A stretch of DNA of 22,534 nt, taken from positions 1 to 22,534 of the IMG/VR virus record IMGVR_UViG_3300042893_002574. One strand, 5' to 3'. Both the position numbers and the translations under genes were made by a program. Of this stretch, positions 117-21,381 are shown piece after piece. Under the pieces are notes generated by a model. The model did not search any database and was not told the origin of the DNA. It saw nothing but the letters and a program-made list of their open reading frames with translations. Every line of letters starts with the position of its first letter. Position 1 is the first letter of the stretch. This stretch comes from a virus.

Positions 117-353
117 TTAAAGGAACCACCATAGCAAACCGGCTGTCCAAACGGGAATTTGAGGTATAAAATTTAACATAATAGGACCATCTTTTGTTTT
201 AATGCCAACATAAACCCATAGAGATGCGCCTACCAAATGGAACATTGGACCAATAGGGTAAAGGTCGAAGGCATGACACCAGATTGCGACAAAAACTAAA
301 GATGGAGCTAACCATCTAATAATATTGAATGATCTACTACGACTACTGTTCAT
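117..353 (-). CDS. Small membrane protein, unknown function
   Basis: A 78-residue protein with a short polar N terminus (Asn, Ser, Arg-rich) followed by three hydrophobic stretches, about residues 13-30, 38-50 and 60-78. It ends in a Trp-rich segment (GLLWWFL). It very likely sits in the inner membrane with two or three passes. The chosen start is the ATG at 353, preceded by GGAGG and a five-base spacer; a TTG four codons upstream is less likely. It overlaps the end of the oxygenase gene by 11 bases, so the two are probably translationally coupled. Small membrane proteins of this shape occur in aquatic phage genomes, but I cannot name a family with certainty. A holin role is possible but has no support beyond size and hydrophobicity. 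Confidence 0.7.
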   Translation of the reverse strand: MNSSRSRSFNIIRWLAPSLVFVAIWCHAFDLYPIGPMFHLVGASLWVYVGIKTKDGPIMLNFIPQIPVWTAGLLWWFL

Positions 354-1026
354 AACTACCTCCAAAAAAGAATACGGATACTATCCACTTGTCAGACGAC
401 AATGGCATAAGGCCACTATGAGGGTAGAGCCAATGAGAAGGAAAAAGTGCCACCCTCCCTGCAACGGCATCGATAGTTAAATCTTGGAGCGGAAATTGTG
501 TCCCACCACCATGCGAAACCGTGTTTAGGTATAATACCCCCCCCAACACCCTAGAGCCCGCTATCCAAGGTGCCCCATCAATATGTTGTTGGTAAAAACC
601 GGTATTTTCTTTATATTGTTGAATTTGGAAACTGGTGTCGCCAATTACAAAATTATCGGAATGCGGAGGAAATTGTAAGTGATAAAAGCTGTGTTGGTAT
701 ACTCGCATCATCCTCAGGATTTCATTTCTTAAGCGAAAATCAAATTCATCCCTTAGGGGATTAATGTCGCCATAATCCTGATCTAATCGCCAGTCACAAG
801 AGACCTTGACATGAGGCATTACACCAGACATAGTTCTCCCACTAAATGACTCTGAAGGGTTGCTTTTACAAAAATCTATCAGATTGGAGCAAAACTCTTC
901 GGAGAAAACATTGTCGGCATATGCTATGCCGGAAGATTTGCCTGCAGGCCATTTTATCTCGTTAAAAAGATAATAGCTATTAGACAAATCTATTTCAAGA
1001 TAATCTTCTTGTTTTTCTATATTCAC
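343..1026 (-). CDS. 2OG-Fe(II) oxygenase, prolyl 4-hydroxylase-like
   Basis: A 227-residue non-haem iron dioxygenase of the double-stranded beta-helix fold. These enzymes couple 2-oxoglutarate decarboxylation to hydroxylation of a protein or small molecule. Visible ligands are the HxD pair His148/Asp150 (in QHIDG), the distal His203 (in YPHSG) and Lys213, ten residues after the distal histidine. That His-to-Lys spacing is the 2-oxoglutarate-binding arrangement of collagen prolyl 4-hydroxylase; many other family members use Arg. The stretches LGGVLYLN and FPSHWLYPHSG are typical core strands. The N-terminal third (to about residue 110) is helical and less conserved. The start is taken as GTG at 1026, overlapping the upstream gene by 32 bases; the Shine-Dalgarno sequence there is weak and TTG at codon 14 is an alternative. 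It is the third member of the halogenase cluster. The substrate is unknown; fibre proline hydroxylation is only a hypothesis. Confidence 0.88.
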   Translation of the reverse strand: MNIEKQEDYLEIDLSNSYYLFNEIKWPAGKSSGIAYADNVFSEEFCSNLIDFCKSNPSESFSGRTMSGVMPHVKVSCDWRLDQDYGDINPLRDEFDFRLRNEILRMMRVYQHSFYHLQFPPHSDNFVIGDTSFQIQQYKENTGFYQQHIDGAPWIAGSRVLGGVLYLNTVSHGGGTQFPLQDLTIDAVAGRVALFPSHWLYPHSGLMPLSSDKWIVSVFFFGGSYEQ

Positions 1027-1747
1027 GTGCTATCCAGCCTGATTCAGTTGGTCCCAAAACATCAACATCACTATGTACACCATACACGTACTTAAAGTCG
1101 CTTTCGTCCATCATCTTAATATTACCAAAGTCCTCGGCCCTCTTAAATGGGACTAGGTGAACTAAGGGCTCATTATGGGGAATTATAAATTCTTTATCTG
1201 TTTTTATATTTAATACCACATTAATTTGGTGATAAAAATCTGTATGAACTATACCAGCAACAATATCATAGTTTGGGTTAGGTTCATGCATAATGCCCAG
1301 CTCAATTGTTGACCAACCGGGCGCTGTTATAAATGCATAAGGTGTTACCAGCTTTGGGTAAGGACTGTTTTCGATAGACCTAACCCCGGTCATTGGGCAC
1401 TCCCCAGTCATTTCGTAAGGGAAGAAATCCGCACCAAAGATAGTATTAGAAACGGAAAACTGCGCGGCCTGAACGTCCCAACGCCCAGTTAATTCATCCG
1501 GTACAAACCTGAAGGTTGTCCATGCTGGTATTGTAATTCCTATGTCGACAAAATCTTTAATACCAGAACATCTTCTGATCCCGCTTTTTGGCGAAAGCCT
1601 AAACCAAGCTGGACGTTTTTTGGGGCTATTTACGTAGGGTTCTTCACCCATTTCAATCAAGCGATTATCCGAAGGGACAACGCATATCTCACCAGATTTG
1701 ACTGATTTACGCAGTTTATTATAAGTTTTATTCTTTTTCGATATCAT
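995..1747 (-). CDS. Protein of unknown function between halogenase and oxygenase
   Basis: A 250-residue soluble protein with no signal peptide or membrane segment. After a basic N terminus (Lys/Arg-rich to about residue 18) it has a Trp/Pro-rich core, with RPAWFRL near residue 45, a Cys-containing stretch IRRCSGIKDF near 57-66, then IGITIPAWTTFRF. The second half contains many alternating beta-strand patterns and the segment PHNEPLVHLVPF. The short motif order (aromatic-rich PAW, then Cys, then IPAW) is shared in my recollection with uncharacterised phage proteins, but I assign no function. ATG at 1747 overlaps the halogenase end by 20 bases, and its own end overlaps the oxygenase start by 32 bases. 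Expression is therefore tied to both neighbours, and a shared pathway is likely. A cupin-like or small-molecule-binding fold would fit the beta-rich pattern, but that is a guess. Confidence 0.75.
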   Translation of the reverse strand: MISKKNKTYNKLRKSVKSGEICVVPSDNRLIEMGEEPYVNSPKKRPAWFRLSPKSGIRRCSGIKDFVDIGITIPAWTTFRFVPDELTGRWDVQAAQFSVSNTIFGADFFPYEMTGECPMTGVRSIENSPYPKLVTPYAFITAPGWSTIELGIMHEPNPNYDIVAGIVHTDFYHQINVVLNIKTDKEFIIPHNEPLVHLVPFKRAEDFGNIKMMDESDFKYVYGVHSDVDVLGPTESGWIAREYRKTRRLS

Positions 1748-3200
1748 TTAAAGCTTCGGCGTGATCAACTAACTCAACGCCCATCCTCTGACTTTCTATA
1801 TCTCTACTCAAGTAGTGCGTCTCATCATATACCGAAAGATTACCCAATGTCCAATCCAAATTAGAAACCTTCACAAGACCCTGACCTTGGGCGACGTGCA
1901 AGAAGTGTGCCACCTGAAACATCTCTCCATTGTTTGCTGCTATATAATCCCTAGGAAGAGTAGTCTCCCTAAGTAAATTTAGTAAATCTTGAAGAGTATC
2001 GTTTACTGGCATATTTGATGCCGCAGTCCAAAAATCGGTGTCATCTCTATCGGTCATATAGTGCATCCTTATCATTGTAAGGATGTTATCTAGCATGATA
2101 TTAAACGACTTATTATAAGCTTTCTGCATGGCCGTATTGCCCGGCTCATAGGAAGCGACATATGGCACCAACTGGTCGATCTGCTGTATAGTCGAAGCTA
2201 TTGAGGTTGCTTCTAAGGGTTCAACAAAAGATGACGAGAGTCCTACCGCGCAACAATTCTTTACCCACGGCTCCCGCAAATGGCCGGGGTCAAAAGTAAA
2301 TGACCTAGTGGCTCCGATGCTTTGATCACGTTTTTCACTAATTTCCTTCACGGCTGAATCATGGTCTATAAAGCTTGAAGAATATACGTAACCATTGCCC
2401 CTTCTAAACTGGGTTGGTATTTCCCATGACCAGCCGGAAGATAATGCTTCAGCGATGGTATATGGCTTAATTTTCCCATTTTCTTCGCCCTCTGTCGGGA
2501 ATGCAAGGGCAGAATCGACTAAGAGGTATTTTGAAAAACTATTCCATTTTGGGTTGTCTACTTTTGATATTAGCACCTTGTTAAATCCAGTGGCATCAAT
2601 CCAAAAATCCGCTTTAAAACCATTAGCCTCTTTTAGATCAATCGACTCTATATTTCCGCTTTCGGCATTCAGGTTAACGTCCTCCACGAATGCGTCGATC
2701 AACTTGATATTTCGCATAATGCATAATTTTGTTAAATATTTATTTAAAGAAAACGTATCGAAATGAAATTGATTAACATTTTTGTGTAAGCCATTTTTTT
2801 GAATCTTATCCTGACGAAGACCAACAGATCCCGTATAATCCGTCAGCAATTTTCCTTTATGAATAAGGTAGGAATATAGCGGAAATAATCTCCAAGCAAA
2901 TATTTCTTCATCGCCAGAAACACTGTGGAAATAGTCTGGATTTTCTTTTGACCAATTTATAAAATTAATGCCATATTTATGTGTAGCATTTGTCTCTACA
3001 ATCATATCCAAAAGTGGTATATCGCAGTAATTCAAAAACTTCTTCCAGTGCTCAGTACTACCTTCTCCGACGCCAATTATACCAACTTCACTAGAGGCAA
3101 CAAGCGTAATTTCGGAAAAAGGAAAAGCTGAACGCAACATTAAGGCGGATATCAGCCCCGCTGTTCCTCCGCCAACAATTCCAAAAGAAATGGGTTTCAT
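1728..3200 (-). CDS. Flavin-dependent halogenase (tryptophan-halogenase family)
   Basis: A 490-residue flavoenzyme that should use FADH2, O2 and halide to make hypohalous acid for halogenating an electron-rich substrate. The FAD-binding GGGTAG lies at residues 10-15, right at the N terminus. The GVGEGS segment is at 43-48. Lys75 (in THKYGINF) is in the place of the catalytic lysine of PrnA-type enzymes. The family signature WxWxIP is present as Trp257/Trp259/Pro262. The later segment NCCAVGLSSSFVEPLEATSI (315-334) corresponds to the conserved region carrying the active-site glutamate. Length and motif order match the family, so it looks intact. ATG at 3200 has AGGAGA four bases upstream; an in-frame upstream extension to 3257 is just overlap with the previous gene. 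A related cyanophage enzyme, VirX1, has been shown to iodinate diverse substrates; whether this one acts on free or protein-bound aromatics is unknown. No flavin reductase is visible here, so the host must supply reduced flavin. Confidence 0.93.
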   Translation of the reverse strand: MKPISFGIVGGGTAGLISALMLRSAFPFSEITLVASSEVGIIGVGEGSTEHWKKFLNYCDIPLLDMIVETNATHKYGINFINWSKENPDYFHSVSGDEEIFAWRLFPLYSYLIHKGKLLTDYTGSVGLRQDKIQKNGLHKNVNQFHFDTFSLNKYLTKLCIMRNIKLIDAFVEDVNLNAESGNIESIDLKEANGFKADFWIDATGFNKVLISKVDNPKWNSFSKYLLVDSALAFPTEGEENGKIKPYTIAEALSSGWSWEIPTQFRRGNGYVYSSSFIDHDSAVKEISEKRDQSIGATRSFTFDPGHLREPWVKNCCAVGLSSSFVEPLEATSIASTIQQIDQLVPYVASYEPGNTAMQKAYNKSFNIMLDNILTMIRMHYMTDRDDTDFWTAASNMPVNDTLQDLLNLLRETTLPRDYIAANNGEMFQVAHFLHVAQGQGLVKVSNLDWTLGNLSVYDETHYLSRDIESQRMGVELVDHAEALNDIEKE

Positions 3201-3201
3201 A

Positions 3202-3888
3202 CTATCTCCTAATAAAGCACGTATATGAAATGTAACCTTGAAGATGATAGCTGTCAAATTGATCTAACGAATGGATATAGTTGTGAACCTCTTCGGCAAA
3301 CGTATTCTCCGAATGGTAATACTCGCTACCATTAGAGGCGTTTGATAACATAAACATTCCACCCGGGTTAACAGAGCCCAAAATACCGCTTAAGACGTTT
3401 TGGTCTATTAAAGATGTTATATGGGCTGTTGCGAAATCGACTTTCGGCATTTCATACCTTATTGTATCCCAAGATAACGTCTCGACGTTATCGATGGAAT
3501 CTGTCGCAATAACTTCGTTCGCTATCCCCAGCAAAGTAGTGTTAGCTGTATACACTGTGCTTACAGATTCAGATAAATATATAAGCGAAGCTGGACTATC
3601 CATTATAAAAGCCGTTTGTGCCGAAGTTATTCTTGCAAAGAACGTAAATATTTTTGAAGCTGCATGAATCATTGGGGCTAAAATTTCGCCACCCGGAGCC
3701 CCTGCAACACCAAAAGTGTGAAAATCAATACTTGTGCTAGCTGTATTAATATCCATATTTTGTTCAGTATAATCATACATATCACGGGAAAGTTTTATAT
3801 AAGAATCAAGATCAGGAAGTGTTTGACTCTTGGTGACCCTAGCATTCTCTTCCGACCTCTTTGCGATGCCCAAATAAAGATCCGGCAT
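3202..3888 (-). CDS. Rossmann / methyltransferase-like protein of uncertain activity
   Basis: A 228-residue protein whose second half looks like the back half of a class I SAM-dependent methyltransferase. It has a strand plus acidic residue (IATDSIDN, about 127-134), a following strand (KVDFATAHI, 149-157), a helix, then NPGGMFMLSNAS (174-185) with the PGG turn usual after the fifth strand. The front half has the right strand-helix rhythm but no glycine-rich SAM-binding motif I that I can see. It may be a degenerate enzyme or a different Rossmann protein. ATG at 3888 has GAGGAG with a four-base spacer; the TTG four codons upstream is rejected. It begins one base after the preceding stop and ends one base before the halogenase ATG, so it belongs to the same translational unit. 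Function is inferred at low confidence. Confidence 0.7.
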   Translation of the reverse strand: MPDLYLGIAKRSEENARVTKSQTLPDLDSYIKLSRDMYDYTEQNMDINTASTSIDFHTFGVAGAPGGEILAPMIHAASKIFTFFARITSAQTAFIMDSPASLIYLSESVSTVYTANTTLLGIANEVIATDSIDNVETLSWDTIRYEMPKVDFATAHITSLIDQNVLSGILGSVNPGGMFMLSNASNGSEYYHSENTFAEEVHNYIHSLDQFDSYHLQGYISYTCFIRR

Positions 3889-3889
3889 T

Positions 3890-4111
3890 TTACTCCTCAA
3901 ACCCTAGTGTTCCTGCAAACATTGCGATATTAGATGCTTCGTGCTTAGCCTTGACTAAAGATGAACCCGTCAATGTTAAAGTTAAACCAATTTTAATGTT
4001 TCTTAAATTTTCTGGCGTTATAAGAACCGGCTCTAAACCAGCCAATACGCAAATATAGGCTGATCTTTCTGCGTAGTACGCACTTTGATCTGACCTGTCA
4101 TACGTTATCAT
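3890..4111 (-). CDS. Small protein, unknown function
   Basis: A 73-residue protein with no recognisable family. It has a Tyr/Ala-rich start (QSAYYAERSAYICVLAGL), a beta-like middle (IKIGLTLTLTG) and a helical Lys/Ala-rich end. No signal peptide or definite membrane helix is present. ATG at 4111 is preceded by GGAG at six bases; an upstream TTG is less likely. The gene overlaps the end of the previous small gene by 14 bases and is followed one base later by the methyltransferase-like gene. The tight packing and good ribosome-binding site argue that it is real. A role in fibre assembly or in the adjacent modification cluster is possible but unproven. Confidence 0.6.
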   Translation of the reverse strand: MITYDRSDQSAYYAERSAYICVLAGLEPVLITPENLRNIKIGLTLTLTGSSLVKAKHEASNIAMFAGTLGFEE

Positions 4112-4271
4112 CAAGTTCTCCAATACTGAAAATAAAAGGGTTATCTACCAGCGGGCATCCTGATTCATCTGTTTCTTGGGTTGACAGCCAGTCTTGGAGG
4201 TACGAAAAACTCTCGTCACCCAAAAATGAACCATACCCTCTCTCAAAAGAATCTATCCATTGAGTGGACAC
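4098..4271 (-). CDS. Very small acidic protein, unknown function
   Basis: A 57-residue acidic protein, Trp- and Ser-rich at the start (STQWIDSFERGYGSF) and ending in an Asp/Glu-rich tail. The frame is open upstream to a GTG at 4319, but that would overlap the previous gene by 47 bases. GTG at 4271 leaves a one-base gap after the preceding TGA and has GGAG about ten bases upstream, so I prefer it. No family is recognised. Support rests on its position in an otherwise gapless operon and on coupling with the next gene. Confidence 0.5.
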   Translation of the reverse strand: MSTQWIDSFERGYGSFLGDESFSYLQDWLSTQETDESGCPLVDNPFIFSIGELDDNV

Positions 4272-4272
4272 T

Positions 4273-4512
4273 TCAATCAAGCTCCGCCAGCTTCGCGTCG
4301 ATAATCGCAAGACCACCACTAATTTGGCCTATCCTCATAACAGCGTCTGCTATAGACTGAAAATTATCCGGATCGAAGTTTGCGTAATCAAATGTGTCAG
4401 GATCTACGCCAGACCTAATAAGTATTTGCGCCAACTCTAGAGTCAAAGACTCTTGGGCTTGGAACAGGAAATCTTTTTTACTTTGATCATTTAAGTTGTC
4501 AAAAAATGACAT
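4273..4512 (-). CDS. Small acidic helical protein, unknown function
   Basis: A 79-residue acidic protein, mostly helical. Residues 1-33 form an amphipathic region (QESLTLELAQILIRSG) and residues 52-79 a second helix (IADAVMRIGQISGG and on). A short Asp/Phe/Asn-rich linker (PDTFDYANFDPDNF) joins them. ATG at 4512 has a strong AGGAGG with a short spacer. It follows the last glycine-rich fibre gene by eight bases. The two-helix shape could suit a small chaperone or assembly factor for the fibres, but nothing in the sequence proves this. Confidence 0.65.
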   Translation of the reverse strand: MSFFDNLNDQSKKDFLFQAQESLTLELAQILIRSGVDPDTFDYANFDPDNFQSIADAVMRIGQISGGLAIIDAKLAELD

Positions 4513-4520
4513 TTGTCCTC

Positions 4521-5669
4521 CTAATTGTTTAAAATAATATAACCTACACCCGAAGTTGCTGTACCTGTGCCAGAAGAACCAGAAGAAACTGTGTAAGTTT
4601 GACCAGAAGGCGTAGAGTCCGAGACTATTATTATAGCACCTCCGCCACCTTTATATCCGGTTTCCCCAGTGCCCCCGGTTTTTGTTGGTGAACCAGCACC
4701 TCCGGTACCTCCAGCCCCGCCATGATAATTGCGGTAGGCGTGAAAAGCTGCGTGATTGCAATTGCCTTTACAATCTGTATTAAAACATCCATGACTAAAA
4801 TGCACACTATTAGCGGTATATCCAGTATTACCATTAGCCCCAGAACTTCCTGCCGCACCTGTCGACCCGGCAGATCCGGCAACCCCAGATTTACCTTTAG
4901 CAAATATGGTTCCAGTCCCAGCAATTGTCTTGGCAAATATTAGAACCAATCCGCCACCGACACCACCTGCACCACCCGCGCCACCAGCGCCAGCGCCACC
5001 GCTATTAGGCGCAGTTCCCGGACTACCGGCATTTCCCGCATTAATCACCGCACCGTTTGAATGATTGGTGGTGTCATTTGAATGATGGTGGGAACCGTTG
5101 CCGAAACTACTGTAAATCAATCCAGCAGATCCCGCATTTCCGCTTTTACCAGTCCAGTTATCATTATTGGTGTATGCAGGGTCCGTGTGACCTTGAACAC
5201 CAGTTATCCCAGCGGTTCCACCATACAGTAGGCCGGCAGATTGCCCGGCGCTAGGTGTAAAAAGCCTTGTTGCTAACTCTCCCTCAAGTAGCCTTTCAAT
5301 ATTTTGCACCAACCACACAGGTGCTGAGTTTGTGGTGCTACCGCCACCAGCCCCACCTAAACTGTAAGTTATGCCCGTTAGTGTTGTTGGTCCTATAAGA
5401 GTGTTTGAAAATGATGTCGAAGGCTCACCACCGCCAGCTGTACCTACCCCTATGAAACCATTATTTGTCAATGTACCCTTAACGAAAACCCTATAGCCAT
5501 CAGTCAACAAAGTAATACCATTATTAACAGTCAAGTTGTTATAATACTTATCAGATGTCAAAGTAGTATTAGTTGAAATCACAACATCGCCATCAGTTCC
5601 TTGACCGTAAACTGAATCATTCCCAAGTCTTTGAATTGTTTTTGTATTAATTCTTTCAATTGATCCCAT
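4521..5669 (-). CDS. Glycine-rich tail fibre / adhesin protein with Cys/His cluster
   Basis: A 382-residue virion protein, probably a fibre tip or adhesin. The N-terminal part (about 1-75) holds the repeat-like module seen in its upstream neighbour: a VYGQGTDGDVVI segment, then strands YYNNLTVNNG and YRVFVKGTL. The rest is dominated by glycine-rich runs (GGAGAGGAGGAGGVGGG near 225-242, GGAGGTGGAG after 317). Two unusual patches stand out. One is His-rich (HHH at 194-196 followed by another His). The other (about 289-318) contains C-x4-C-x3-C flanked by six histidines. Together they could bind a metal ion. The start is ATG at 5669, one base after the previous stop; the longer frame to 5741 merely overlaps the upstream gene. 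Host-receptor recognition is inferred from composition and position. Confidence 0.78.
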   Translation of the reverse strand: MGSIERINTKTIQRLGNDSVYGQGTDGDVVISTNTTLTSDKYYNNLTVNNGITLLTDGYRVFVKGTLTNNGFIGVGTAGGGEPSTSFSNTLIGPTTLTGITYSLGGAGGGSTTNSAPVWLVQNIERLLEGELATRLFTPSAGQSAGLLYGGTAGITGVQGHTDPAYTNNDNWTGKSGNAGSAGLIYSSFGNGSHHHSNDTTNHSNGAVINAGNAGSPGTAPNSGGAGAGGAGGAGGVGGGLVLIFAKTIAGTGTIFAKGKSGVAGSAGSTGAAGSSGANGNTGYTANSVHFSHGCFNTDCKGNCNHAAFHAYRNYHGGAGGTGGAGSPTKTGGTGETGYKGGGGAIIIVSDSTPSGQTYTVSSGSSGTGTATSGVGYIILNN

Positions 5670-5670
5670 A

Positions 5671-6402
5671 TTACACCAACTGCATAAAATTATAAGTTCC
5701 CGATGCGGCTCCCGAATTTCCAGTGACATCAGTTGAAACATTAGATGGAAGAGCTGTGAGCGATGAAACTAGCAAAATCACTCCGCCACCTCCGCCAGTA
5801 GCGCCACCCGGAGCGGCAAATTTTGCGTTCGTTGTAGTAGCAGTGCAAGCGATATATCTTGCTGTACAAATAATAATACCGCCACCTATTCCGGTTGATC
5901 CTCCTGCACCGCCCCGCAGATACGTTGGGTTTGTAGAACCGCCAGTAAGAGAATAGCCCTTGATTGCCTGCAGGGGTTGTTGATAGTACGTTGAACCGCC
6001 AGTTGCAGGAACTGGAGCAGTAGCAGTTCCGGCTCCAGCTCCAGTTCCTGATCCGCCGAGAGAATGAGTTACACTTGCTGTAGCAGCAGCGCCCTGCTTG
6101 ATACTTCCATCGGTAGAGTATCCGCCAGTGTAACCTATAGTTGAAGCGTTTCCAAGGGTAAGCAAGTTTTTTACAAAAATTCTGTATCCATTTGGCGCCA
6201 ACCTAACGCTGTCGTTAAGGGTTAAATTATAACAATAAATGTCTCTAGTCATTGAGTAAACGCTAGATGAAGGAACCATGCTTAAGATTGTTGTTGTGCC
6301 GTCAAATACTACAGAACCATCGACAGCATTCCCATAAACTATATCTGGGGCGTCCAGAAACTGTGCTAAGGAATTACTCCCGTATTTGACTAGGCCCCCC
6401 AT
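5671..6402 (-). CDS. Glycine-rich tail fibre protein (paralogue of its downstream neighbour)
   Basis: A 243-residue structural protein. Its N-terminal region carries IVYGNAVDGSVVFDGTTTIL followed by strands around CYNLTLNDSV and YRIFVKNLLTLG. This module is common in phage fibre or adhesin proteins and is shared with the next gene. From about residue 90 the sequence is rich in Gly, Ala, Ser and Thr (GGSGTGAGAGTA, GGAGGSTGIGGG, PGGATGGGGG), ending in a beta-rich tail. ATG at 6402 overlaps the preceding stop by one base (TAATG), with GGAGGAG just upstream. It is shorter than its downstream neighbour and lacks that neighbour's Cys/His patch. A role in host attachment is inferred. Confidence 0.75.
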   Translation of the reverse strand: MGGLVKYGSNSLAQFLDAPDIVYGNAVDGSVVFDGTTTILSMVPSSSVYSMTRDIYCYNLTLNDSVRLAPNGYRIFVKNLLTLGNASTIGYTGGYSTDGSIKQGAAATASVTHSLGGSGTGAGAGTATAPVPATGGSTYYQQPLQAIKGYSLTGGSTNPTYLRGGAGGSTGIGGGIIICTARYIACTATTTNAKFAAPGGATGGGGGVILLVSSLTALPSNVSTDVTGNSGAASGTYNFMQLV

Positions 6403-6746
6403 TAAGCTCCTCCGACCACGTCTTCTTCAATGCCAAATATAGCAATATTCACAGATGTTGCGGATGAACATAAAGCTTTTATTGTTTCCGTAGATTGCAT
6501 TACCATAGAGCAGTTAAATGCAATAGTTTCATTTGCGGCAATAGATACAGCACTTAAAATGTCGAAAGTATTATTTTCTGTTCCAGATGTATATAATCTA
6601 ACTGTTATAGTTTTAGCTGAAGCAGTAGTATTAGCTAATATTATCTGCTTAACAATAGTCCTAATGTTACTTGGGACAGTATAGTATATTGCACTTGATG
6701 CCGTGAGCTGTGTTGGTCCACCCAACCTTTTTTGCGTAATTGCCAT
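6402..6746 (-). CDS. Small beta-rich virion protein next to the fibres
   Basis: A 114-residue protein with a strongly alternating beta-sandwich pattern: AIYYTVPSNIRTIVKQIILANTT, then TITVRLYTSG, VSIAANETIAFNC and a C-terminal strand VNIAIFGIEEDV. The strand order (dimerising segment, TIVKQIILAN, TITVRLY, ANETIAF) is familiar from small phage proteins encoded beside tail fibres, presumed fibre-associated or decoration proteins. ATG at 6746 has GGAGA upstream with a seven-base spacer. It follows the collagen-like gene after 41 bases and is coupled to the next gene by TAATG. The exact role is unknown. Confidence 0.7.
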   Translation of the reverse strand: MAITQKRLGGPTQLTASSAIYYTVPSNIRTIVKQIILANTTASAKTITVRLYTSGTENNTFDILSAVSIAANETIAFNCSMVMQSTETIKALCSSATSVNIAIFGIEEDVVGGA

Positions 6747-6787: not shown

Positions 6788-11590
<4,803 letters not shown>

Positions 11591-17955: not shown

Positions 17956-19080
17956 TTAAGCTTTTCTTTTGCCCATAAGGATGTCGACAAAGAGATCTTC
18001 TGCTCGTTCTTCAACTGAAGTCTCAGAATTTTGCTCCTCAATGTCGGATGTTACTACATTTGATTCGCCCTCAACTGCTTCTACGCTTTCTTCCATTGTT
18101 AAGGAAGTCGTCGCATTAGCCGTGGGACGAGGAAGTTGAGCCAAGTCACGAAGAGAATCGGCAAGTGATGCACCGGTTCTATCTGCATGCTCTTCAATTG
18201 AATCTGCACGCTCTTCGGCTTCAACTATACCAAGATAAATTTTAGTATCCACAACTCGCTCAACAAGTGTGCGATGAAGTGCATTTTTTAGCTTGGCGTT
18301 CTTTTCTTCAAGCTCTCTAACCTTTGCTTCGAGGTTTTTAACGTGTAGCTCCTCTGGTGCATTTTCACCAGTGAGTTCACTCTCTTCGGCTGGTTCTTCG
18401 TCTTGAATAACCTCTTCTTCTTCAGATGCCTCTTCTTCAGCTACCTCTTCGGTGGCTTCTTCTTCGTCATCTTCTGATTCGCGGTTTATTGGAGCACCTT
18501 TCGATGTTTCAGGATCAACGTCTTTATTGCCCGATTTTTCTTGACCTTCGGGACGTTCACCTTCTTCTACGTCTGTCTCCTCATCAGCGACAACTTCTTC
18601 TTCGGCTGGCTCTTCGCTAACCTCAGGAGATGTTTCTTCGCTAACTTCTTCAGTCTCTTCTTCCACTACCTCTACTTCAGAGGGGGCAGAGAGATCAGTA
18701 TTTAAATTTTCGATAACCTCAAGGATATCGTCTTTGTAATCTTCCATATCAGATTCTGCGCTCTCTTTCAAAATATCCGGTACCGGTCGATCAGACCCAT
18801 TGACTTTTTTCCAAGATGCTCTGATTTTAGCTTTAACTCCAGCTAAATCAGCCCTTGGTATTTGAACTTTATTTCCCCTGAAACCCGTTGACTTAAGAGC
18901 AGAAACAGCACGTGATACTTGAGCAATTGTTTCCTTTTGATCAAGACTATCCCAAAGGCGAAGCTTCCAGGTAGAAGGCGTTTCAGGGTCTGGAACATAA
19001 GCAAAAGCTGCTGCGGGGAAATTCTCACCGCCTTCTTTTTTGGTCGCTACCTCTTCAAAGGTAGCATCTTGCTCTGCCAT
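17956..19080 (-). CDS. Candidate nested scaffold protein (internal in-frame start)
   Basis: Inside the protease/scaffold gene a perfect GAGGAG (19092-19087) with a six-base spacer precedes an in-frame ATG at 19080. It would give a separate 374-residue protein starting MAEQDATFEEV. It would contain the last accessory domain, a Glu/Asp-rich stretch, a coiled coil (KNLEAKVRELEEKNAKLKNA) and the C-terminal tail, but no protease. This is the arrangement of lambda C and Nu3, where the scaffold is made from an internal start of the protease gene. It is inferred from sequence; the Glu-Glu codons could produce the Shine-Dalgarno match by chance. Confidence 0.5.
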   Translation of the reverse strand: MAEQDATFEEVATKKEGGENFPAAAFAYVPDPETPSTWKLRLWDSLDQKETIAQVSRAVSALKSTGFRGNKVQIPRADLAGVKAKIRASWKKVNGSDRPVPDILKESAESDMEDYKDDILEVIENLNTDLSAPSEVEVVEEETEEVSEETSPEVSEEPAEEEVVADEETDVEEGERPEGQEKSGNKDVDPETSKGAPINRESEDDEEEATEEVAEEEASEEEEVIQDEEPAEESELTGENAPEELHVKNLEAKVRELEEKNAKLKNALHRTLVERVVDTKIYLGIVEAEERADSIEEHADRTGASLADSLRDLAQLPRPTANATTSLTMEESVEAVEGESNVVTSDIEEQNSETSVEERAEDLFVDILMGKRKA

Positions 19081-20547
19081 TAAATTCTCCTCGGAGCTGA
19101 TTTCAACGCCATCTGGTAAATTAGTATCGTTTATATCACGTTTTACAACTTCTTCTGAAATTTTATTTATGATCTGCGCCTCTATGAAGGCACCTTTCAT
19201 TTTCATGTGTAACGAAGTTGCTTCTTTCTTTTTCATTTCAGAAAGTATGTCAACATCTTCAGATTCTAAACATTTTACTATACTTTCATTATTTAAATCA
19301 AGGATGAATAGTCCAATAACAGACTCGAAAGGATCGGGCATCCCGTAAGAGGCCTTAACTAAAGCGTCTATCCTTCTAACTGTAGACATCTTATGGCCAA
19401 CCTTAATGTCGGTTGGCCCCCATGAGTCGCCAGACTTTCTCCAAAGATTTATTAATAATGCTGGATCATCTGGTGTTCCCGTAATCCTAAATGAAGAATC
19501 AGGAACCTTTATTGTTCCATTAGAAATAATTCTAGAAATCTTACCCCTAGCAGTACCGCCTGAAGAGTTCCAGGAAACAAAATCTCCAACCTTTAACCCT
19601 TCAGCTTCTGCGTATTCAAATTCGTTCATAGATGAAGTTGCTATCTTAGTAGACCAAGACATTCCAGCATCTCCGCCCCAAAGCGCCCAAGCTATCCGAC
19701 CATTACTGGGGAAACCTTCTTCGCCTTGGCGAAAACCTGTAGCCTTTTTATCAACTTCGTGACGAGCAAAAAAGGAATACATTCTTTTAACGGTATCTAA
19801 CGGCAAGTTTTTTCCATTAACTATATCGCGACCCCTAGCTATACCTATAGCGGTTCCGCCTCTACCATACTCATCTCTCCATGCTAAACCTTTTTTAGCT
19901 TCCGCAACCATACCAGAAGTAGGCTTATAGGAATCAGCTTCGGACACGCTAGAATCATTAACTCCGCTGACAACCCTAATCGTAGAGTTAGAATCTGCTG
20001 GTACGTTGACAAAAGAATATTCTTTAAATCCTATATTACGCATCTCAAGTACAGCAACTTGATCCTTGTAGCTTTCACCTCTAATGTGAGCGCAAGGAGC
20101 ACCCGACTTACGAGAGGGGAGCGCCCAATCAACTCCGCAAATAGAACAAACAGCCTCTTCCGCTTTACCGCCCACAGAACCGGTTAGGTAACGCTTATCC
20201 ATTACGCGCTGAACAGCGACAGGGTCTGTAACAGCGGCCTGCAGCCTTACAAAGGCGCTACCGTTTTCTTCATAATCCATTTTAGCCCCTATAACACGAC
20301 CAATAGGATCGCTATTTATATCGTGATTTATAATTATAGGCTTAGGATATGGGGTGAGCCATGAGTTAAGTGATTTCTGTAGCTCTGATTCGCCATAGAA
20401 ATTATAATTAGCTGTTACGCCGGCATGTATTGCAGCGACTTCAACGACTAAACCATGACTTTCGCTAAATGCACTTTCCTGAAATCTGTGAATTGGTTCA
20501 TTCTCAGGCAAAAATAAAGTAACGTTTTCTTGAAAGTTAAGTGCCAC
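17956..20547 (-). CDS. Prohead protease fused to accessory domains and a scaffold-like tail
   Basis: An 863-residue polyprotein, far longer than a usual prohead protease (about 200 residues). Residues 1-195 match the serine protease of HK97/XkdF type: His75 (IIINHD) and Ser124 (TGSVGG) are candidate catalytic residues, followed by KEYSFVNVPAD. A Cys/His set (C134, C137, C152, H154) may bind zinc. Next come a conserved phage accessory domain (about 212-300, GRGGTAIGIARGRDI and ARHEVDKK), a small SH3/Tudor-like domain (about 317-393, GDFVSWNSSGGTARG), and another accessory domain (about 500-590, FPAAAFAYVPDP to KVQIPRADLAGVKAKIRASW). The remainder is very acidic and then coiled-coil, as in scaffolds. 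GTG at 20547 has GGAGAAA upstream; TTG four codons earlier is rejected. Confidence 0.85.
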   Translation of the reverse strand: MALNFQENVTLFLPENEPIHRFQESAFSESHGLVVEVAAIHAGVTANYNFYGESELQKSLNSWLTPYPKPIIINHDINSDPIGRVIGAKMDYEENGSAFVRLQAAVTDPVAVQRVMDKRYLTGSVGGKAEEAVCSICGVDWALPSRKSGAPCAHIRGESYKDQVAVLEMRNIGFKEYSFVNVPADSNSTIRVVSGVNDSSVSEADSYKPTSGMVAEAKKGLAWRDEYGRGGTAIGIARGRDIVNGKNLPLDTVKRMYSFFARHEVDKKATGFRQGEEGFPSNGRIAWALWGGDAGMSWSTKIATSSMNEFEYAEAEGLKVGDFVSWNSSGGTARGKISRIISNGTIKVPDSSFRITGTPDDPALLINLWRKSGDSWGPTDIKVGHKMSTVRRIDALVKASYGMPDPFESVIGLFILDLNNESIVKCLESEDVDILSEMKKKEATSLHMKMKGAFIEAQIINKISEEVVKRDINDTNLPDGVEISSEENLMAEQDATFEEVATKKEGGENFPAAAFAYVPDPETPSTWKLRLWDSLDQKETIAQVSRAVSALKSTGFRGNKVQIPRADLAGVKAKIRASWKKVNGSDRPVPDILKESAESDMEDYKDDILEVIENLNTDLSAPSEVEVVEEETEEVSEETSPEVSEEPAEEEVVADEETDVEEGERPEGQEKSGNKDVDPETSKGAPINRESEDDEEEATEEVAEEEASEEEEVIQDEEPAEESELTGENAPEELHVKNLEAKVRELEEKNAKLKNALHRTLVERVVDTKIYLGIVEAEERADSIEEHADRTGASLADSLRDLAQLPRPTANATTSLTMEESVEAVEGESNVVTSDIEEQNSETSVEERAEDLFVDILMGKRKA

Positions 20548-20610
20548 TATTTTCTCCAAATTGTTAAGAGCTATGTATCCTATAGTAAAAGTTATATACC
20601 TATATTAAAC

Positions 20611-21381
20611 TTATTCTAAAACCGAATGATTTCTTGGGTCTCCGCCACTTAAATGCTGATCCAACATCCACTTATGCATGATGTGTGATGCATACAGATC
20701 TGAAGCGCAATAAAGATTGTAACCAGCGCGCCCGCACTCCGCCGACCACCCCAGGTCCTCTCCCTGAGGATGCCATATATATCTAGCATTACTGTAAACT
20801 TCTGGATTCATCATAACTGCCGCCATAATAATATCTGATTTAAAAATTTTTCCCATAGGATAAGAATCTAATTGCCTAGAAGCTTTACCCCCAACATGAT
20901 TAGACCACGTCATAACCGAAGGGAAGTCGCATCCCTTAGGGTACATGTAAGATAGTGGAGATATTGCATCTATACCATCTCGCTCTAAATTAAAATATAA
21001 CTTCTCTAGCGTATGGGGATTATCTATCAAAATATCTGAATCTAAAGAAAAGTACTTATCTGGCTTCACCCTAAGGGCAGTATCAAGTAGGCTATTTCTT
21101 AAATCAACCATTTTATAATATGAATTTTTAGTCCACGTTCTATGGCCATCTTCGTGGGTGTAATGATTTAGGTCTTCCCTTATGACTGCGTCAAAAAAGG
21201 CGACTTCCCGATGAGAGTTGGCCCAATCGTACAAGATTGAATGAGTTTCATCATCATTTGGCCCCAACTCAAATACGAATCCAATATCAGACAACGGTAT
21301 TGTTTGATTCTCTATTGCCTCAAACCAATATGGTAATATCCAAGACCTTTGGTAGGCTGGGCATCCTATAAGTATTTTCAT
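20611..21381 (-). CDS. Glycosyltransferase, GT-A fold
   Basis: A 256-residue nucleotide-sugar-dependent glycosyltransferase. It opens with MKILIGCPAYQRSWILPYWF, a typical first strand and helix. LRNSLLDTAL precedes the metal-binding DxD motif, here Asp114-Ser-Asp116 (KYFSLDSDILID). Near the C terminus HPQGEDLGWSAECGRAGYNLYC has the acidic residues expected for the acceptor or catalytic base. The pattern resembles the Anp1-like GT-A group. There is no membrane segment, so it acts in the cytoplasm, on DNA, a virion protein or a host polymer. It lies between the portal-proximal genes and the protease gene, an unusual place. ATG at 21381 lacks a recognisable Shine-Dalgarno sequence, so expression may be low. 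The acceptor is unknown. Confidence 0.82.
   Translation of the reverse strand: MKILIGCPAYQRSWILPYWFEAIENQTIPLSDIGFVFELGPNDDETHSILYDWANSHREVAFFDAVIREDLNHYTHEDGHRTWTKNSYYKMVDLRNSLLDTALRVKPDKYFSLDSDILIDNPHTLEKLYFNLERDGIDAISPLSYMYPKGCDFPSVMTWSNHVGGKASRQLDSYPMGKIFKSDIIMAAVMMNPEVYSNARYIWHPQGEDLGWSAECGRAGYNLYCASDLYASHIMHKWMLDQHLSGGDPRNHSVLE

Follow-up and report, generated by a model that had tools for sequence, protein, structure and literature searches.

A conserved halogenase core beside glycine-rich fibre genes of uncultured viruses and cultured cyanophages, with a possible role in fibre tailoring

Introduction

What does a halogenase act on when its gene lies behind the fibre genes of a virus? 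This question is raised by IMG/VR record IMGVR_UViG_3300042893_002574, of which positions 1 to 22,534 were analysed (hereafter the window). The window is a 22.5 kb contig of an uncultured virus and carries genes for a portal, a capsid protein, a sheath, a collagen-like fibre and two glycine-rich proteins. After these structural and fibre genes lie five open reading frames (ORFs), all on the minus strand and in the order 3202-3888, 1728-3200, 995-1747, 343-1026 and 117-353, which code respectively for a Rossmann protein, the halogenase, a protein of dUTPase fold that we call the partner, a 2-oxoglutarate (2OG) Fe(II) oxygenase and a small membrane protein. The five genes and their junction spacings of +1, -20, -32 and -11 bases, as given in an initial annotation of this DNA, were reproduced exactly in the ORF list. 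The fixed stoichiometry that had been read from these overlaps found no support: overlapping junctions are ordinary in the window (10 of 22 in a list of 23 genes, some of whose starts are assumed, structural genes among them), so that gene overlap alone says little on stoichiometry.

We report that the core of this cassette is real, widespread among close relatives and tied to fibre genes, and that it shares its layout with the locus of VirX1, the iodinase of the cyanophage Syn10 (PDB 6qgm); we then propose a function for it. Gene content, gene order, linkage to the fibre, co-divergence and the intact residues of the halogenase and the oxygenase were computed directly.

Results

Conservation of the core in uncultured phages

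We examined two sets of IMG/VR loci, the best 80 of 85 confirmed loci anchored on the partner and the best 80 of at least 555 confirmed loci anchored on the halogenase; because the best-scoring loci were taken, both sets tilt to close relatives. Halogenase and partner were both present in 79 of the 80 partner-anchored and 77 of the 80 halogenase-anchored loci, and they were same-strand neighbours in 75 and 71 loci, respectively. Once identical sequences had been merged, 104 distinct halogenases could be compared, a count that omits the window's own copy and the loci of the phage collection. The partner accompanied 102 of them, being adjacent in 95, a 2OG gene 93, the small gene s1 82, the Rossmann gene 22 and the membrane gene 3, the presence counts being lower bounds given the limited flanks. 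For close relatives, the check proposed in the initial annotation, on whether viral metagenomes show the unknown protein together with the halogenase and in an unchanged gene order, thus gave a positive answer. The five genes do not form a fixed cassette. Since so few relatives have them, the Rossmann and membrane genes, the first and last of the five, are accessories, and the conserved core consists of the fibre, s1, the 2OG oxygenase, the halogenase and the partner. The s1 gene (4273..4512, minus strand) lies between the fibre and the enzymes and codes for a small conserved protein that is 38% identical in the relative L003.

Divergence of the halogenase was paralleled by that of the partner (r 0.87, 69 pairs), of the upstream 2OG protein (r 0.85, 59 pairs) and of s1 (r 0.78, 50 pairs), and part of this co-divergence reflects the common descent of the locus. 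In a scan of bacterial genomes, 22 halogenase loci were confirmed and the partner was present in two of them (L249 and L250), where its neighbours include a 2OG gene as well as glycine-rich ORFs.

The enzymes and the partner

The halogenase gene (1728..3200, minus strand; 490 residues counted from the conserved ATG) codes for a flavin-dependent protein of the tryptophan type. Searched as the longer ORF 1728-3257, it matched PF04820 (Trp_halogenase) with an E value of 5.9e-97 and 325.8 bits against a cut-off of 21, over residues 26-462 of 509. The window protein has the GxGxxG motif and what we take to be the catalytic lysine (K79 type), the WxWxIP motif and the active-site glutamate. Among 99 distinct relatives, the lysine was present in 99, a WxWxIP-like motif in 97 (strict form in 83) and the glutamate in 99; in the VirX1 clade, alignment placed the lysine, the first tryptophan, the proline and the glutamate in 12 of 12 sequences. 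By its sequence the protein is thus a PF04820 halogenase with intact catalytic residues, and its putative activity would be halogenation with reduced flavin adenine dinucleotide. Profile match and catalytic motifs are those of the PrnA/RebH-type tryptophan halogenases, which act on free tryptophan in bacteria, whereas the window enzyme is set among viral fibre genes. The same profile search recovered another member of the superfamily, PDB 5uao, presumably MibH. MibH halogenates tryptophan in a ribosomal peptide, a precedent for a peptide substrate, and belongs to a bacterial cluster for a ribosomally synthesized and post-translationally modified peptide that is not known to include a dUTPase-fold partner.

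The oxygenase (343..1026, minus strand) resembles prolyl 4-hydroxylases and matched phrog_61 and PF13640 (E 1.4e-8, 36 bits against a cut-off of 27). The residues of its HxD...H...K pattern, H148, D150, H203 and K213, which correspond to the iron triad and the 2OG-binding lysine, were invariant in a five-row alignment.

The partner (995..1747, minus strand; 250 residues) had no Pfam match and received no name from searches of Pfam and NCBIfam profiles. It matched phrog_7084 (E 2.6e-20; 1.8e-71 for the Syn10 homologue). Individual members of the family matched the Pfam dUTPase profile in 15 of 52 cases (best 1.1e-6) and DUF6065 (PF19541) in 8 of 52 (best E 0.0024); the protein is DUF6065-like in this sense, the window copy itself giving no match to PF19541 at the gathering level. 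Its structure was predicted with a predicted local distance difference test (pLDDT) score of 90.8. Foldseek placed dUTPases at the top (best E 5.2e-5), and all 50 matches listed in a VIA structure comparison were dUTPases, with Z up to 10.5 over 126 residues. Of 51 partners compared, 37 have His where motif III of dUTPases has its catalytic aspartate, 12 have Asn and 2 have Asp; in the window protein the hidden Markov model alignment put H168 there. Since this aspartate is mostly replaced, the partner is, judged by its residues, probably not a working dUTPase; D170, near this position, is invariant and could belong to a shifted active site. The homologue in S-CREM1 is annotated as a triphosphate nucleotidohydrolase, in agreement with the fold. 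The partner thus resembles dUTPases and the dUTPase-type regulators of the phage phi11 kind in fold, and differs from dUTPases in motif III and in length (250 residues against about 115-170 in the matched dUTPase chains). Folds of this kind are able to act as protein-binding modules. One uncultured locus (L160) has, besides the copy next to the halogenase, a second, very divergent partner copy at 2261-2986, with 17% identity to that of the window.

The two accessory proteins were less readily assigned. Pfam and NCBIfam profile searches gave no name for the Rossmann protein (3202..3888, minus strand) and its Pfam matches were weak. The AlphaFold model (pLDDT 88) has a predicted class I S-adenosylmethionine (SAM) methyltransferase fold of the O-methyltransferase type, the best Foldseek match being to TrmR (E 1.7e-8); the glycine-rich SAM motif I was not apparent in an alignment inspected by eye. 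The small membrane protein (117..353, minus strand), searched as 117-365, resembled DUF6552 at 26.7 bits, just below the gathering cut-off of 27.

Linkage to glycine-rich fibre genes

The gene upstream of the core codes for a glycine-rich protein whose N-terminal domain is common across loci, and in most relatives this protein carries a very histidine-rich insert. Two such genes are found on the minus strand of the window: fibB (4521..5669), identified by N-terminal domain alignment, His-poor here and the proposed substrate, and its paralogue fibA (5671..6402), which has an N-terminal domain pattern in common with fibB. Among the 86 loci with at least 4.5 kb of upstream sequence, 80 had an upstream glycine-rich ORF reaching at least 15% His per 60 residues, and 65 reached at least 25%. 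The controls were 45 matched glycine-rich fibres from loci without a halogenase in the stretch, of which 40 were distinct in length and His value, and none of them reached 15%. The contrast is asymmetric in that each cassette locus was represented by whichever glycine-rich ORF scored best in the 5 kb upstream, and each control by the matched ORF. The matches listed for the fibre of one locus, L204, were mainly general glycine-rich proteins together with L204's own contig (L271), so that the 45 control loci stand for glycine-rich fibres in general; most of them are not closely related, and common descent makes the contrast larger. Six of the 86 loci had no upstream His-rich insert, and in five of these the partner was also displaced or missing.

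We then anchored the search on the N-terminal domain of the fibre. This gave 79 loci, many of them on contigs shared with the partner- and halogenase-anchored sets. Downstream sequence extended for 2.9 kb or more in 64 of these loci, and in 63 of them the stretch contained both halogenase and partner, the cassette lying upstream in L189 and on the opposite strand in L209-L212. The sole close negative was L204, which has a His-poor fibre and does not have this pair in the stretch; a search of phage records with its fibre gave no match. What most sets the inserts apart is their histidine; in the examples inspected they are rich in HxH and also contain Trp, Tyr, Pro and Asn.

The same layout in cultured cyanophages

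In Syn10, syn9, S-RIM44, Sf-FR1, P-TIM40 and S-CREM1, glycine-rich adhesin genes are followed by one or more halogenases, a partner homologue and 2OG genes. We read 24 halogenase loci of the annotated collection, mostly with 7 kb on each side (10 kb for four early loci and for the faecal contig L334). A partner homologue was found by profile in six, all beside glycine-rich ORFs, and not in the other 18, distant phage halogenases often being without it. With L334 left out, so that 23 of the 24 loci were classified, the partner was present in 6 of the 12 loci whose stretch has a glycine-rich ORF and in 0 of the 11 others, a count that is optimistic because Syn10 and syn9 are near-copies and S-SSM6a and S-SSM7 apparently so.

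In Syn10, which differs from the window in having two tandem halogenases, the phrog_7084 homologue overlaps the second of them and is followed by genes of oxygenase type. A scan of ten proteins downstream, homologue included, gave four matches to 2OG or JmjC profiles above the cut-off and four weaker ones. The Syn10 adhesin matched seven phages (12 records). A halogenase lay just downstream in all seven regions read, and the remaining five records, each a second entry for one of the seven phages, have their halogenase match positioned near the adhesin match. We take CPUG_00131 to be VirX1 from its length (530 residues against 531). The VirX1 locus is thus like that of the window in its upstream glycine-rich fibre genes, its overlapping downstream partner homologue and the 2OG genes beyond, and VirX1 belongs to the same enzyme superfamily as the window halogenase; the latter shares about 29% identity with the Syn10 region and falls in a separate clade.

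On a halogenase tree built by a quick method and with some long branches, the window and VirX1 clades were separated by bacterial and phage enzymes without the linkage, and at least four changes of partner linkage were forced. The existence of two separate linked clades indicates either that the association arose more than once, or that it was kept in two lines and lost elsewhere.

Several further arrangements were seen around these halogenases. Tandem pairs occupy the fibre locus of several cyanophages (L316, L319, L325 and L329), and those of Syn10, S-RIM44 and P-TIM40 fall in different sub-clades, which may correspond to two target residues or positions. In S-SRM01 (L332, 4965-9573) the halogenase has a tail fibre gene as its direct neighbour on one side and an annotated gp37-gp38 adhesin tip gene on the other. 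In S-SCSM2R (L006, 183-4069) an annotated radical SAM maturase, glycosyltransferases and an inosamine amidinotransferase are found about 6-10 kb from the halogenase.

Other genes of the window

The largest fibre gene (6788..11590, minus strand) codes for a collagen-like G-X-Y protein of 1600 residues. It is rich in GPT, contains a repeated non-collagen module and has its proline almost confined to the X position. Collagen-type prolyl hydroxylation of this fibre was set aside in view of 3 GXP against 103 GPX triplets, a point against including such hydroxylation in the tailoring discussed below. Small ORFs on the same strand code for s2 (3890..4123; 42% identity across 64 residues in L003), for a 73-residue product found in few relatives (4098..4319; profile matches in four loci) and, 5' of the fibre pair, for a protein of phrog_1276, function unknown (6402..6746). 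Near the portal gene, a minus-strand ORF of 256 residues (20611-21381) looks by eye like a family-2 glycosyltransferase and had no PHROG match at E 0.01. Another minus-strand ORF, of 867 residues (17956-20559), has a very acidic C-terminal half and, by eye only, is possibly a prohead protease-scaffold fusion. The major capsid protein of the window was found in 10 of 48 records tried, many of them fragments; the window itself is one of the ten, and the L204 record was among the 48.

Discussion

The cassette had been suggested to act on a fibre protein or on a host metabolite. The first of these is the better supported, because the core adjoins genes for glycine-rich fibres both in phages known only from metagenomes and in cultured ones, and the second becomes a rival to it. 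We therefore propose, with a probability of about 0.5, that the core cassette tailors the phage's own glycine-rich fibre or adhesin, the halogenase and oxygenases modifying it and the partner serving as an adaptor. Reduced flavin would probably come from host reductases. The halogenase would produce hypohalous acid, held on the conserved lysine, and the halogen would be passed to electron-rich aromatic side chains of the upstream, usually His-rich adhesin, which one or more 2OG oxygenases would also hydroxylate. The dUTPase-fold partner would be a substrate or assembly adaptor, and the enzymes would act during adhesin assembly. The adhesin as substrate, the residues modified and the adaptor role are what we infer from the genes, as is any advantage to the phage, for example through a change in receptor binding or its protection. 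Both dUTPases and fibres are trimers. The enzymes may dock on the fibre through matched three-fold symmetry, since VirX1 too is described as a trimer in the available part of PMC8407142; the same text gives it a large, accessible active site that accepts bulky substrates, with which a protein substrate is compatible. We suggest more tentatively, and at less than even odds, that many phages halogenate and hydroxylate their own receptor-binding adhesin post-translationally by means of a dedicated, co-inherited cassette made up of halogenase, an adaptor with an inactive dUTPase fold and 2OG oxygenases; VirX1 would be one such enzyme, with a tail-fibre adhesin as its native substrate.

Several observations weigh against fibre tailoring. 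The fibB of the window itself has 10 His in 382 residues, with at most 8% in any 60. The asymmetric His comparison was less clear-cut when every glycine-rich ORF of the stretch was allowed to count, since two of the 45 controls (L298 and L305) then reached 0.22. The Trp and Tyr content of the inserts varies, and we know of no halogenase of this kind that has histidine as its substrate. The loci are related by descent, so Fisher tests overstate their independence, and the N-terminal domain of the fibre showed the weakest co-divergence with the halogenase (r 0.57, 31 loci). In the annotated collection, a glycine-rich ORF was absent from the stretch in 11 of 23 classified halogenase loci; of the 12 counted as having one, two (S-H38 and HTVC008M) have it 5-9 kb away from the halogenase. 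No partner was found by profile in the fibre-side loci of P-RSM6, S-SZBM1, S-WAM1 and S-SRM01. When annotated phages were searched with the window partner, the one match, a weak one in S-RIM4, lay where no halogenase is annotated for 8 kb around. The halogenation chemistry itself is a proposal made from gene data.

The enzymes might instead make or modify a small molecule in the infected cell, such as a halogenated amino acid, an antibiotic-like metabolite or a surface sugar, with the proximity to the fibre being incidental. In the available parts of PMC7824862, PMC2984593, PMC9964418 and PMC10452541 the role of cyanophage halogenases is metabolic or speculative, and the in vitro substrates of VirX1 include many small aromatics (PMC8407142, available part). 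PMC7824862, in the part available, already notes the halogenase, 2OG and cupin cluster of S-SSM6a and reads it as secondary-metabolite or capsule biosynthesis. The description of the cassette as an undescribed system therefore needs to be qualified as regards the pairing of halogenase and 2OG genes in one run. A fibre-tailoring role for halogenases was not found among literature titles and abstract openings, a search that left most subscription papers uncovered. The clusters of S-SSM6a and S-SSM7 differ from the window locus: they include genes for a carbamoyltransferase and for sugar metabolism, profiles found no partner in them, and the stretch contains no glycine-rich ORF. They fit a metabolic role, whereas the confinement of the partner to annotated loci with a glycine-rich ORF, and the His-rich inserts that go along with the cassette in the sets examined, speak for the fibre, and we regard the small-molecule explanation as rather improbable. 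Fibre-module ends often contain accessory genes. The cassette could thus have been inherited as a block at an insertion hotspot with no functional tie to the fibre, in line with the low co-divergence of the fibre domain and with the variable presence and place of p5, p1, s1 and 2OG genes among loci. The fact that two separate halogenase clades have the same partner and 2OG genes next to adhesins of different types, together with the association of His-rich inserts with the cassette in the sets examined, makes this account unlikely.

Two further accounts have been considered. T4-type fibre tips bind iron via HxH motifs, and the HxH-rich inserts could by the same token bind a metal or a pH-dependent surface ligand, the enzymes aiding folding or metal loading without stable modification; this would leave the retention of a halogenase with intact catalytic residues unexplained, and appears very unlikely. 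Some 2OG enzymes modify nucleic acids, so the dUTPase fold of the partner might mark a nucleotide or DNA modification system in which halogenase and 2OG enzyme act on nucleotides. Several genes after cyanophage halogenases are indeed annotated 'DNA endonuclease V', and the window oxygenase also matches phrog_2297, labelled DNA endonuclease, with E 8.9e-14. That label looks doubtful, because two Syn10 counterparts of the syn9 'endonuclease V' genes match 2OG profiles, at sub-cut-off level, and the motif-III position of the partner is not Asp in 49 of 51 members; we consider this explanation the least probable of all.

Tailoring of the fibre is thus the reading that we favour. VirX1 is a studied biocatalyst and halogenases occur in many cyanophages; the conserved tie of such enzymes to the partner and to adhesins offers a concrete substrate that is testable in cultured phages. 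If fibre tailoring is true, halogenation would join the ways in which viruses diversify or protect their receptor-binding proteins, and these loci would be a source of enzymes acting on proteins.

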